Shown here one piece after another: positions 10,784 through 32,104 of a DNA stretch of 32,889 bases (position 1 is its first letter; each line of letters begins with the position of its first letter). The notes beneath the pieces were generated by a model. The model ran no database searches. It was not told where the DNA came from and was given only the letters and a program-made list of their open reading frames with translations. The stretch covers positions 1 through 32,889 of the forward strand of contig MNWK01000016.1 in assembly GCA_001872485.1 (NCBI GenBank), read 5' to 3'. The DNA is from Parcubacteria group bacterium CG1_02_44_31 (lineage in GTDB: Bacteria; Patescibacteriota; Minisyncoccia; UBA6257; Brennerbacteraceae). The position numbers were made by a program, and so were the translations under genes.

Positions 10784-10890
10784 AAAGCTTTGATATTGTA
10801 ATCGATTTGACCAATGCAGAGCTTGTCGAAGCATTGTCATATTGTCATTCGGCGCTGCTCATGACAATGCTGAGCGTAGTCGAAGGATTG

Positions 10891-10930
10891 ACCCAGCACC
10901 ACTTCTGCCGTAGCAGAAGTGGTGCTGGGT
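10891..10930 (+). terminator. Perfect 18-bp hairpin with CGTA loop, possible terminator; abuts the infA promoter
   Basis: ACCCAGCACCACTTCTGC-CGTA-GCAGAAGTGGTGCTGGGT. Confidence 0.6.
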
Positions 10931-10958
10931 TGACTTTTCCCCTTATCGTGAGTAGAAT
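10930..10958 (+). promoter_or_regulatory. Putative alpha-operon promoter
   Basis: TTGACT-N17-TAGAAT, 11 nt before the infA ATG at 10970. Confidence 0.6.
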
Positions 10959-12195: not shown

Positions 12196-12211
12196 TGATA
12201 TTTTGTATGGT

Positions 12212-12841
12212 ATGGCGTTTATTTTAGGTCCAAAGGAAAAAAAGAACAGAGCTGTTGGAGAGTATTTGCAACTCAAAGCTGAACGGTCGCTCTCGCAAAA
12301 ATCAGCAATGATTCGCAAACCATATCGTCCGGGCATGCACGGCAAACGACGCCGCATGATGTCTGAATACGCGTTGCAGCTTGCGGAAAAACAAAAAATC
12401 CGTTTGACATACGGATTGAGCGAGCGTCGCATGAAACGGTATGCGTCTGATGCAACGCGTAATAAAATTATTTCAAAGACCGATTGTTTGGTTCGCGGGC
12501 TTGAATCGCGGTTGGATAATACGGTATTTCGCGCCGGGTTTGCTCCTTCGCGGAGTATTGCGCGCCAATTGGTTTCGCACGGCCACATTTTGGTCAATAA
12601 CAAACGCGTAACCATTTCTTCTTACGCAATGCGGCGAGGAGATATCATAACCGTAAGCGGTCAAGCAAGAAAGACCAAAGCATTTTCAGAATCTTTGGAA
12701 ACGATTAAAAAGCACATACCGCCAGCGTGGATTAAAACCGACCCGGATGCTTTGAGAGCAGAAGTTGTAGGGGTTCCAACACTTGAGCAAAGCGGCATTA
12801 ATTTCAATATTCCCCTTATTCTTGAGTTTTACTCCCGTTAG
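12212..12841 (+). CDS. rpsD: 30S ribosomal protein S4
   Basis: YRPGMHGKRRRMMSEYALQLAEKQKIRLTYGLSER...SRLDNTVFRAGFAPSRSIARQLVSHGHILVNNKRV; ATG at 12212 preferred over TTG at 12203. Confidence 0.97.
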   Translation: MAFILGPKEKKNRAVGEYLQLKAERSLSQKSAMIRKPYRPGMHGKRRRMMSEYALQLAEKQKIRLTYGLSERRMKRYASDATRNKIISKTDCLVRGLESRLDNTVFRAGFAPSRSIARQLVSHGHILVNNKRVTISSYAMRRGDIITVSGQARKTKAFSESLETIKKHIPPAWIKTDPDALRAEVVGVPTLEQSGINFNIPLILEFYSR

Positions 12842-12847
12842 TGTAAA

Positions 12848-12885
12848 CCCCGCACCATCCTTGTTAGACAAGATTGGTGCGTGGG
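12848..12885. repeat. Hairpin element E1, flanked by TAAA
   Basis: TAAA|CCCCGCACCATCCTTGTTAGACAAGATTGGTGCGTGGG|TAAA. Confidence 0.75.
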
Positions 12886-12889
12886 TAAA

Positions 12890-13025
12890 CCCCGTAGTGA
12901 GAATGCGACTGCCTTAACAAAAGAATTCCATGCATGTTACGTATACAACCTAGTAAATTGATATCTGTGTATTAAAATAAAATCAGAAATACGGCATAAA
13001 ATTCTGTCGCATTTCTACTACGGGG
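12890..13025 (+). mobile_element. MITE-like element D1, flanked by TAAA
   Basis: Termini CCCCGTAGTGAGAATGCGACTG and (reverse complement) CCCCGTAGTAGAAATGCGACAG; homologous to 19126-19263 and 20671-20839. Confidence 0.75.
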
Positions 13026-13029
13026 TAAA

Positions 13030-13132
13030 CCCCGTATGAAATTCAACAAAATAATGCACGAGCAAAAATAAAAGATTTTCTAAAACATACTATCCTCTTC
13101 AGATTCTTTGTACTTATGAATTTCTGACGGGG
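13030..13132. mobile_element. Second MITE-like element, different interior, flanked by TAAA
   Basis: Termini CCCCGTATGAAATTCA and (reverse complement) CCCCGTCAGAAATTCA; TAAA at 13026-13029 and 13133-13136. Confidence 0.65.
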
Positions 13133-13163
13133 TAAACATAATTAACAAACGGAAAATGAACAT

Positions 13164-14075
13164 ATGATTACATTACCGAAACAACCAATAATCGTCGAGT
13201 CAGATGCCCGCAAGGCGGTTATTGAAATTGAAGGATTATTCCCGGGATACGGAGTAACATTGGGAAACGCGTTGCGGCGCGTGCTTCTTTCTTCGTGCGA
13301 AGGAGCTGCGGTCACATCGTTTCGCGTGGAAGGCGTTCACCACGAGTTTTCAACTATTCCGAACATTCTGGAAGATGTAATTGACATATCGCTTAATTTG
13401 AAAAAACTGCGTTTCCGCGTTTTTTCCAATGAACCGCAAACGCTATCGCTTGTAAAAAAAGGCGAGGGAATTGTGACTGCTTCAGATATCGCAAAGAATC
13501 CCTTGGTTGAAATCGTCAATCCAGAAGCGCATATTGCGACATTGACTGACAAGCGTGCCGCTCTGGATATGAAAATGGTTGTTGAAAAAGGTATGGGATA
13601 TTCCGAGGTAGACCAGCGTAGAAAAGAAAAGCTTCCTATCGGAACCGTTGCGCTTGACGCGAATTTTTCTCCCGTGACCTTGGTCAATGTTGAAGTTGAA
13701 AATATGATGGTTGAAGGACGAGCGGATTATAACCGTTTGCGTTTACACATTGAAACCGACGGTTCGCTTTTTCCACTGGACGCATATGACCAAGCAATCG
13801 GGATTTTAGTTGACCATTTCGGAAATTTGAGGATTGAAAAGGAGAAAACAGCCCAGGATGCTTCTGGCAAAGAACGCGAAAAACAGGTAAACGAATTGGT
13901 TCTCTCGGGCATTTCGACCCGGTTTTTGGCGATATTGGCAAAACATCGCGTCAAAACATTTGACGACATAGGGAAACTAAATCTTGATAAAATAAGCAGA
14001 TTCAAGGGTTTGGGCGATAAAGCAATTCAAGAAATTCGAAAAGTTGCCGAACAGCACGGTATTGATTTGAAATAA
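13164..14075 (+). CDS. rpoA: DNA-directed RNA polymerase subunit alpha
   Basis: 303 aa; GYGVTLGNALRRVLLSSCEGAAVTSFRVEGVHHEFSTIPNILEDV; C-terminal HhH domain. Confidence 0.98.
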   Translation: MITLPKQPIIVESDARKAVIEIEGLFPGYGVTLGNALRRVLLSSCEGAAVTSFRVEGVHHEFSTIPNILEDVIDISLNLKKLRFRVFSNEPQTLSLVKKGEGIVTASDIAKNPLVEIVNPEAHIATLTDKRAALDMKMVVEKGMGYSEVDQRRKEKLPIGTVALDANFSPVTLVNVEVENMMVEGRADYNRLRLHIETDGSLFPLDAYDQAIGILVDHFGNLRIEKEKTAQDASGKEREKQVNELVLSGISTRFLAILAKHRVKTFDDIGKLNLDKISRFKGLGDKAIQEIRKVAEQHGIDLK

Positions 14076-19034: not shown

Positions 19035-19125
19035 GAGGACATTAAGTAATTTGGCGCTTGTTACGCGGATTGACTGTTTTTTGCGCAATGCGGTTCAGTT
19101 GAAAGGGAAAATCGTATTGGGCAAG

Positions 19126-19263
19126 CCCTGTAGTAGAAATGCGACAGAATTTTATGCCGTATTTCTGATTTTATTTTATCAACAATGTAATCAATTCTTT
19201 ACAGTTTATACGTGTTTATTTATTAAATTCTCTTGTTAAGGCAGTCGCATTCTCACTACGGGG
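19126..19263 (-). mobile_element. MITE-like element D2, flanked by CAAG
   Basis: CAAG|CCCTGTAGTAGAAATGCGACAGAATTTTATGCCGTATTTCTG...TTGTTAAGGCAGTCGCATTCTCACTACGGGG|CAAG; reverse orientation to D1. Confidence 0.8.
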
Positions 19264-19631
19264 CAAGCGTTTTTTCAAAAGGAGAAAGCATAGGTTATGT
19301 TTTTTCAGTTATCGTATGGTACAATGAGGTGTGGGAATTATCAGCGTTGTTTACTTTTTCAAAAAGGAAAATACCTGGATTTCTTACATGTTACAATAGC
19401 ATGCATGAAGAAATTTGATTTGTCTGTATTTGGGACGATCGTTCAAAATAGGGATAAATCAAATATTATTAATAAACCATCCGAATATAACAAAAATGCA
19501 AAAAAGGGTGAACAGATAATAAAGTATTGAAATAGTTCGCTGGTTCAAAACCGTGCCCGTTCGCTACCCGAAGCGTTTCCGAAACCAACTTCCTCATTTT
19601 AAAGTGTAAACAACGATAAGAAATCTTACAA

Positions 19632-20570: not shown

Positions 20571-20670
20571 TATATGGAACACGAAAGGCAACCGACGACC
20601 ATAGAGATAAATAAACTTCAGCACCCTTGTTTATATTCAAAGATAATTAACGGGACTACTACGGGGCATG

Positions 20671-20839
20671 CCCTGTAGTGTCATGCCAGAGGCAGATCCG
20701 CCTTTGGCGGAAAAATGCGACTGCCTTAACAAAAGAATTTCATAAATAAATATATACAAACCAATGGGCATGAATTATATTGTTGATAAAATAAAACAAG
20801 AAATACGGCATTAAATTCTGTCGTATTTCTACTACAGGG
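20671..20839 (+). mobile_element. MITE-like element D3, flanked by CATG, with nested GATCCGCC palindrome
   Basis: CATG|CCCTGTAGTG...ATGCGACTGCCTTAACAAAAGAATT...CTACTACAGGG|CATG; about 31 nt longer than D2. Confidence 0.8.
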
Positions 20840-20840
20840 C

Positions 20841-21281
20841 ATGCGGCGAAATAATCTTTTTCCTTTTGTTGTTTTGGCTGCAAGTATAATCGGCATTGTT
20901 GATACTGCATATTTGTTTATGGGGGAATATGTATTTCATCGCGGGCCTGCGTGCGATTTTTGGGGATTTTCTTGCGATACGGTTATGAAAAGTTCATATA
21001 GCATGGTATGGGGCGTGCCGCTTGCTGTATGGGGATTGCTGTATTACGGTATTTTGTTTTTCGCGTGCATTGCATATTTTGACATGCGCAAATCTGTTTT
21101 CGTGCATTTCATTATGCTTGCTGTTGCATGGGGAATCGTATTTTCAGGTTGGCTTGTATATATTCAAGCAATGCGCCTCCATGCATGGTGTTTGTATTGT
21201 CTTATTTCAGAGGTATTAGCCGCGGTGATGGGTTTTGCGCTGTTGATTTCAATATACCCCGTGCGTATAAAGAAAAAATAA
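20841..21281 (+). CDS. Vitamin K epoxide reductase (VKOR) family protein
   Basis: 146 aa, several TM helices; ACDFWGFSCDTVMKSSYSMVWGVPLAVWGLLYYG; CLYC motif. Confidence 0.9.
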   Translation: MRRNNLFPFVVLAASIIGIVDTAYLFMGEYVFHRGPACDFWGFSCDTVMKSSYSMVWGVPLAVWGLLYYGILFFACIAYFDMRKSVFVHFIMLAVAWGIVFSGWLVYIQAMRLHAWCLYCLISEVLAAVMGFALLISIYPVRIKKK

Positions 21282-30616: not shown

Positions 30617-32104
30617 ATGGCTTACAAAACAATGCGTAAAAAAGTAAAACCCCGCACCGTCCATCTAAGTGGGACCGGTGCGGGGGTAAAACCTCGTACC
30701 GCTTCGTCAGGCGGGCCTCTCCGCGTAGACGGAGCTGGCATGAGGGTGAATACGAAAAAAAAGCGAAAAACGGCAAGGGCTGTTAAACATTTCGCAAAAT
30801 CCCGTTTTGTAAGACGGGATACTGCGAAAACGTCAAAAACAAAAAAGGTTCGTATGTCCCCGACGCTTCGGTACGCGAGAAAAACATTGGGGCTTCGGGG
30901 ATTGCTAAAAAAGAGAAAAAAAACAAGCAAAAAAACAACCGCAAAGCGCACCTTAGCGATACAAAAACGGAAAAGAATTGTCACGAAACAATTCGCCAAA
31001 GGCGCATCCAGCGTTGGCAGAAAAATGAAGAAAGCGGAAATGTTAAACGCGATTGAAGAATTGTTGAAAAAAGGACGGCAGCGCGGTTTCATTACCGAGC
31101 GGGAAATTTTGCAAGCAATTCCCGATACGGAACAAAATATTATGATTATCGAGCAGTTGTATGAACGCTTGCAGGCGGCAAATATCAAACTGACAGGCGT
31201 CAAAGAATTTTTGGGTACGCCACTGGACACGCGCGTGGGAGAAAACGGATTATTCCAAGACGAAACGGACGAAATGCCTGACCCAGTTCAGATTTATTTG
31301 CGTGAAATCGGACAAGTGCCTCTGCTTACAAAAGAAGAAGAGCGAGAACTTGGCAAACGTCTTGAAAAAAGTGACCCCGAAGCACGACAAAGTTTGATTC
31401 GGGCAAATCTTCGGTTAGTGGTTTCCATTGCTAAAAAGCATATCGGGCGGTCCGCAAGCCTTACGTTGCTTGATTTAATCCAGGAAGGAAACATTGGGTT
31501 ATCGCGCGCGGTGGACAAATTTGATTACCGTTTGGGATACAAGTTTTCAACCTATGCGACATGGTGGATCAGACAAGCGATTACGCGCGCCATTGCGGAT
31601 TACGGCAGAACAGTTCGTATTCCGGTGCATATGGTAGAAACTATTGCTAAATATAAAAAAGTGAAACGCAAACTTGAAATGGACCTCGGCCGTCCGCCGC
31701 TTCCTATGGAAATTGCGTTTGAAATGGGCGAGGAAACCGACAAGATTCATCAACTGATGAAAATCGACCAGGACATCGTGTCGCTTGATAAGCCCGTGAC
31801 CGAAGACGAGGAAGATACTGTTTTCGGCGATTTTGTCAAAGATGACACGTCGCCCACGCCGGATAACGCAACCGAGATGAAAATGATGCAGGAAAATTTG
31901 CGAGACATTATCGGCAGTTTGACCGACCGTGAGCAAAAAATTATCAGAATGCGGTTTGGCCTTGACGACGGCGTGACGCGTACACTCGAAGATGTCGGAA
32001 GAGACTTTGGCATTACGCGCGAACGTGTGCGCCAAATTGAAGCAAAAGCGTTGGAACGTATGCGCCAGCACGAGTCAGTTAAGAAAATCGGCGAAAGGGA
32101 ATAA
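30617..32104 (+). CDS. rpoD: Primary RNA polymerase sigma factor with repeat-derived basic N-terminal extension
   Basis: [90 protein letters not shown]. Confidence 0.97.
30650..30686. repeat. In-frame hairpin element in rpoD, related to E1, flanked by TAAAA
   Basis: TAAAA|CCCCGCACCGTCCATCTAAGTGGGACCGGTGCGGGGG|TAAAA. Confidence 0.75.
30692..30746. repeat. Second in-frame hairpin element in rpoD
   Basis: CCTCGTACC...GGCATGAGGG imperfect termini; internal CTCCG/CGGAG hairpin; followed by TGAAT. Confidence 0.5.
30790..30829. repeat. Third in-frame palindrome in rpoD
   Basis: TTTCGCA-AA-ATCCCGT-TTTGTA-AGACGGGAT-AC-TGCGAAA. Confidence 0.7.

Follow-up and report, generated by a model that had tools for sequence, protein, structure and literature searches.

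The gap between rpsD and rpoA in Parcubacteria group bacterium CG1_02_44_31 is filled by three short palindromic units arranged in tandem between four copies of one tetranucleotide, TAAA-[38]-TAAA-[136]-TAAA-[103]-TAAA, as read directly from the sequence. The array very probably represents three non-autonomous, palindromic, MITE-like mini-transposons that were inserted successively into a single TAAA behind rpsD, and the description of these units as MITE-like elements with serial re-use of a duplicated target is well supported. The window, i.e. the whole 32,889-nucleotide stretch of DNA that was analysed, corresponds to one contig (C34) of a 527 kb genome, which is 94% complete and assembled in 37 contigs.

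The tandem layout proposed in the first-pass annotation proved exact to the base, as did the proposed start of the array two nucleotides past the rpsD stop: the stop codon (12839-12841) is followed by TG and then by the first TAAA (Table 1). For rpsD, the ATG at 12212 was chosen as the start, the open reading frame as listed beginning with TTG at 12203. The outermost pairs of all three units are C-G and end exactly at the TAAA borders, with inverted arms of approximately 17, 20+ and 17 nt for units 1, 2 and 3, respectively, and a complementarity of 81-88%. The CCCC termini that had been claimed hold only in part: inverted ends are present in all units, while some pair as CCC/GGG rather than CCCC/GGGG, and the arms of unit 1 carry a 1-nt bulge (CCCCGCACC / GGTGCGTGGG). 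The differing interiors were correctly recognised, the three units having only their CCC/GGG tips in common. Furthermore, each unit folded alone is more stable than 200 of 200 dinucleotide shuffles (z = -6.9, -7.1 and -4.6).

Table 1. Positions in the window of the array, its flanking genes and related elements.
Feature	Position	Strand	Evidence
GCACC-class hairpin (10892-10929) with 4-bp duplication TTGA	10888..10933	+	core search, TIR scan
rpsD (ribosomal protein S4), upstream neighbour	12212..12841	+	ORF and translation, aligned with relatives
TAAA, duplicated target at the left border of the array	12844..12847	+	sequence
Element 1, 38-nt hairpin of the GCACC class, CCCCGCACCATCCTTGTTAGACAAGATTGGTGCGTGGG	12848..12885	+	sequence, inverted ends, fold; class members with their own 4-bp duplications
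TAAA common to elements 1 and 2	12886..12889	+	sequence; list of shared junctions
Element 2, 136 nt, MITE-like, CCCYGTAGT class	12890..13025	+	inverted ends, genome copies with 4-bp duplications
TAAA common to elements 2 and 3	13026..13029	+	sequence
Element 3, 103 nt, ends CCCCGTATGAAATTCA / TGAATTTCTGACGGGG	13030..13132	+	inverted ends, further copy elsewhere
TAAA, duplicated target at the right border of the array	13133..13136	+	sequence
rpoA (RNA polymerase alpha), downstream neighbour	13164..14075	+	ORF and translation
GTAGT-class element (19126-19263), orientation opposite to element 2, duplication CAAG	19122..19267	+	BLAST, pair search
GTAGT-class element (20671-20839), duplication CATG, abutting the right end of another element (20658-20666)	20658..20843	+	pair search, junction list
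GCACC-like hairpin with GTAAAA on either side (30644-30691), inside an ORF	30650..30685	+	core search

All three array units are dispersed repeats. BLAST analysis of the array against its own genome returned 43 matches, the weakest of them at chance level; these include many copies of unit 2, some full and some partial (78-97% identical), several further copies of unit 1, and one further copy of unit 3 (96% identical; contig C31, 5939-6050), which likewise lies between TAAA copies. The unit-2 end ACTACRGGG occurs 84 times in the genome against 12 for its reversed control, and the unit-1 core GCACC..GGTGC 28 times against 11 for its control. The element ends are of the types CCCYGTAGT, CCCAGCACC and CCCCGTATG, and copy numbers outside the GTAGT and GCACC classes are lower bounds derived from sampled stretches of the genome. 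The contig breaks of this assembly often fall inside mini-elements (the starts of C11 and C30, the ends of C26 and C35, and the start of C27), and the assembly therefore probably undercounts them. A small hairpin, TTCCGCCAAAGGCGGATCTGCCTCTGGCATGACA, was observed near one end of some GTAGT elements (20671-20839 of the window; contigs C25 and C32), representing a repeat nested within a repeat, and the open reading frame at 30617-32104 stays open through the GCACC-type hairpin that it contains.

TAAA is a target-site duplication and not part of the elements, since the flanks vary between copies and match within a copy. An exact 4-bp direct repeat surrounds 36 of the 50 elements of the two largest classes. 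The GTAGT class, with approximately 30 complete pairs, shows such a repeat in 22 of 31 cases, with TATA, CATA, CAAG, CATG, TATG, TTTA, TTGA or CCTG on both sides, and the GCACC class is flanked in the same manner by TTGA, TAAA, TCAA, TTTA or TTCA. Both known copies of element 3 lie between TAAA, and the variability of the duplication thus rests on the two large classes. Elements lacking an exact duplication (14 of 50) may reflect decay or composite events. An independent scan for CCC..GGG inverted repeats gave the same length, with flanks agreeing in 17 of 30 cases at k = 4, in none at k = 3 and in one at k = 5; outward-shifted control windows matched in 0-1 cases and shuffled pairings averaged 2.0. 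Eleven different tetranucleotides were recorded among 39 duplications (TATA, TAAA, TTTA, TTGA, TCAA, TTCA, CATA, TATG, CAAG, CATG and CCTG); all 39 are of the form pyrimidine-N-N-purine (Y..R), and 33 are T..A. No clear longer target consensus was found around 17 isolated insertions. An invariant TAAA, which the first-pass annotation had named beforehand as speaking against its reading, was not seen: the same elements carry other matching flanks elsewhere.

The elements are short and non-coding, with terminal inverted repeats, many dispersed copies and a target duplication of exactly 4 bp that is fixed in length and variable in sequence. They share shortness, lack of coding capacity, inverted ends, target duplication and high copy number with bacterial MITEs, from which they differ in forming serial arrays of different classes on one duplicated target and in having unusually short palindromic members.

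The sharing of one duplicated tetranucleotide by neighbouring elements is a recurrent, genome-wide habit. The sampled part of the genome yielded 19 candidate junctions with a single tetranucleotide between abutting ends, most of them clear; a few (e.g. CAAG and CAGG) are uncertain, because only one of the two partners is clearly an element. The tetranucleotides at these junctions were TAAA, TATA, CATA, CATG, TTTA, TCAA, CCTG, CAAG and CAGG, and the abutting units often belong to different sequence classes. The elements at 20658..20843 form a second shared-target pair within the window, and on contig C7 a nested insertion was found, in which an outer TATG-flanked element holds a TTTA array. The junction filter missed some cases, such as a GCACC tandem at position 18015 of contig C32, whose upstream end has decayed. 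Chance re-use at the observed rate is implausible (we estimate it at a few per cent), because the window alone offers approximately 420 intergenic tetranucleotides of the observed types.

Comparison with relatives indicates that the array was inserted in this lineage. The rpsD-rpoA gap was read in 29 relatives with an rpoA match, five of which belong to the same family. In these five genomes the gap measures 28-47 bp and holds no array, as opposed to 322 bp here; subtraction of the three element-plus-TAAA units (42 + 140 + 107 = 289) leaves 33 bp. An array conserved without an empty site in any relative, the second outcome named in advance as adverse, is therefore not what is seen. The relatives compared are other genera (rpoA 50-62% identical) and not strains, so that the insertion, although lineage-specific as judged from these sequences, is not necessarily recent. 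The absence of the array from all five same-family genomes also bears on the possibility that the units belong to the alpha operon itself, as conserved hairpins with a regulatory or terminator function, as strong RNA folds between two operon genes might suggest. Given that the same units occur at unrelated loci, that no U-tract is present at the unit ends and that terminators are not in excess (one weak call, inside unit 2, against 0.9 expected in the region), such an origin is scarcely credible; moreover, no Rfam family scored above its gathering threshold for the array. The claim of separate mini-elements with a duplicated and re-used 4-nt target is hence sustained by variable flanks, array-free relatives and shared junctions across the genome.

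Beyond this genome, the distribution is patchy. The longer end CCCYGTAGTRRATTTTCRRC is found only here among 381 genomes of the phylum. By a different pattern, three relatives were seen to hold single GTAGT elements; the duplications around two of these are TCAA (G005) and TATG (G055). The generic pattern GTAAACCCCG..CGGGGTAAAC matches more than 120 stretches across many phyla, where approximately 15 would be expected at random by our estimate, and hairpins with TAAA flanks were found in assemblies of Omnitrophota, Elusimicrobia, Nitrospirae, Planctomycetes, Bacteroidota and Cloacimonadota. In the cross-phylum scan, hairpins of a similar kind were also present in the complete genome of Velamenicoccus archaeovorus, where their flanks are mixed. 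A link between these hairpins and the array elements is only suggestive, because the generic pattern also picks up simple tandem arrays (Planctomycetaceae), and the flanks of some similar hairpins outside the phylum are mixed or inverted. Planctomycetaceae Cd354_bin63 (JAIROD01 contigs) carries long tandem arrays of a unit of approximately 30 nt, TAAA-CCCCGTCGTTAACGAACAACACGGGG, many per genome. No match to the array was obtained among phage, plasmid or viral-contig sequences. A comparison of direct with inverted TAAA flanks in viral contigs was uninformative, the TAAACCCCG..CGGGGTTTA form (101 stretches) resembling ordinary terminators. We found no prior description of these end sequences, or of MITEs in Patescibacteria, in the open-licence literature.

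Duplications that are fixed in length and variable in sequence suggest that the responsible transposase cuts its target with a 4-bp stagger. Insertion by such an enzyme would place a newly made copy of the target on either side of the element, and a later element would then enter one of the duplicated copies, perhaps attracted by the end of the resident element in the way that IS30 inserts beside its own inverted repeats. As a tentative lead drawn by analogy, the piggyBac/IS1380 superfamily, whose signature is CCC/GGG tips combined with a 4-bp T..A duplication, could have provided this enzyme: a DDE transposase that either acts in trans or has since been lost. The piggyBac elements have CCC tips and a TTAA target with the variants TAAA, TCAA and TATG, IS1380 being their prokaryotic outgroup (PMC10813416), and for piggyBac a contact between T and A inside the tetranucleotide is considered necessary (PMC7351741), with which 33 of the 39 duplications recorded here agree. 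The two large classes present in the array show both the tips and the duplication, as do piggyBac/IS1380 elements and their MITEs. They differ from these in a target looser than TTAA, in units as short as 15-38 nt that are almost wholly palindromic, and in the tandem sharing of the duplication. No convincing autonomous element was detected among TIR pairs 300-4000 bp apart at the sampled loci, none with array-type ends among 48 ORFs taken from short contigs and from the ends of others, and no IS1380 transposase among the families listed for the sampled contigs (25 of 70 Pfam and 25 of 534 NCBIfam entries).

Two types of resident transposase deserve consideration as alternative mobilisers. The genome encodes two Y1_Tnp proteins, which match the RAYT model NF047646 below its cut-off, and the array units, being palindromic, intergenic and repeated, with GTAG near their tips, recall REP elements moved as single-stranded hairpins by such Y1 (RAYT or IS200-like) transposases. 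Indeed, REP, REPIN and BIME sequences are likewise short, palindromic, mostly intergenic, present in many copies and sometimes clustered. Y1 transposition (IS200/IS605, RAYT) leaves no target duplication, a property contradicted by the exact, site-variable 4-bp duplications around the array elements, which also rule out an IS200/IS605-type insertion with TAAA as an element-carried cleavage site. In addition, GTAG forms an unpaired tag in REPs (PMC3733652), whereas in the predicted folds of the array units it is paired inside the stem. None of the array units at the loci examined lies beside either Y1 gene, and no association of the RAYT genes with them was seen; mobilisation by these enzymes is accordingly extremely improbable. 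One Y1 (RAYT-like) gene (L035, 1990-2060) is followed by a palindrome of its own, AAGGTCTTGCGATGT..ACATCGCAAGGC, which is unlike the array elements.

IS30 is the only DDE insertion sequence in the examined part of the genome, and it targets inverted repeats: insertion next to these, giving end-spacer-end junctions, has been documented, as has a target duplication of 2 bp (PMC9333248). On contig C27 (L003, 1100-1156), a 32-bp solo IS30 end abuts TAAA-CCCCGTCTGACGGGG-TAAA, the IS end and the 15-nt hairpin sharing the tetranucleotide. It is nevertheless very improbable that the units are miniature derivatives of resident IS30-family elements, as IS30, both in this genome and elsewhere in the class, has TTTGAATCCGAACAC-like ends that are unrelated to the GTAGT, GCACC and GTATG ends, and no 4-bp duplication was seen around IS30 elements; IS30 was therefore rejected as the parent. 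The array resembles IS30 (and IS911) in the placement of new insertions beside an existing end, and departs from IS30 in the length of the duplication, in its ends and in the frequent abutment of units of different classes. Several patescibacterial IS30-family elements (L331-L360; contig C25, 15300-16320) appear to lie inside palindromic flanks (e.g. AATTC..GAATT, CAAC..GTTG and TTTACC..GGGTCAA), as expected for an IS30-type choice of palindromic targets. Elsewhere, on contig C32 (41927 and 43378; L027 and L028), a gene resembling a serine recombinase lies between two copies, in inverted orientation, of a repeat containing GGGGGTAAAAAC.

Returning to the 4-bp staggered-cut transposase, the question arises as to how units with no TIR in common beyond CCC could be served. 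One unlikely answer is that a single enzyme system, whether piggyBac/IS1380-like or new, might read the CCC/GGG tip of a palindrome together with the tetranucleotide next to it, without requiring a particular inner sequence. If true, such a tip-reading enzyme would mobilise many unrelated hairpins and stack them on targets that are used repeatedly, in Patescibacteria as in other phyla. Alternatively, a structure-guided or multi-enzyme system might accept any CCC/GGG-tipped palindrome, explaining how differing interiors obey the same tip and duplication rule. At least four interior types follow this rule in the one genome, and several phyla contain very short palindromes bordered by TAAA at either end. 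Within a class, however, the inner 15-20 nt are conserved, as in ordinary end recognition, and we know of no enzyme for structure-guided mobilisation of palindromes; we consider this alternative quite unlikely.

For the host operon, read-through of the array into rpoA is likely, because rpoA must still be expressed, and the transcript of the array probably serves as an untranslated spacer; a regulatory role, which might touch rpoA/rplQ expression, is possible. The reduced genomes of Patescibacteria are generally regarded as streamlined. The reduced genome described here holds dozens of tiny palindromic insertions, three of them in an essential ribosomal/RNA-polymerase operon. The shared duplicated targets document serial insertion and allow target-adjacent transposition to be put to the test, and a repeat type that is common in environmental genomes, and apparently without a name, could be explained once the enzyme is identified.
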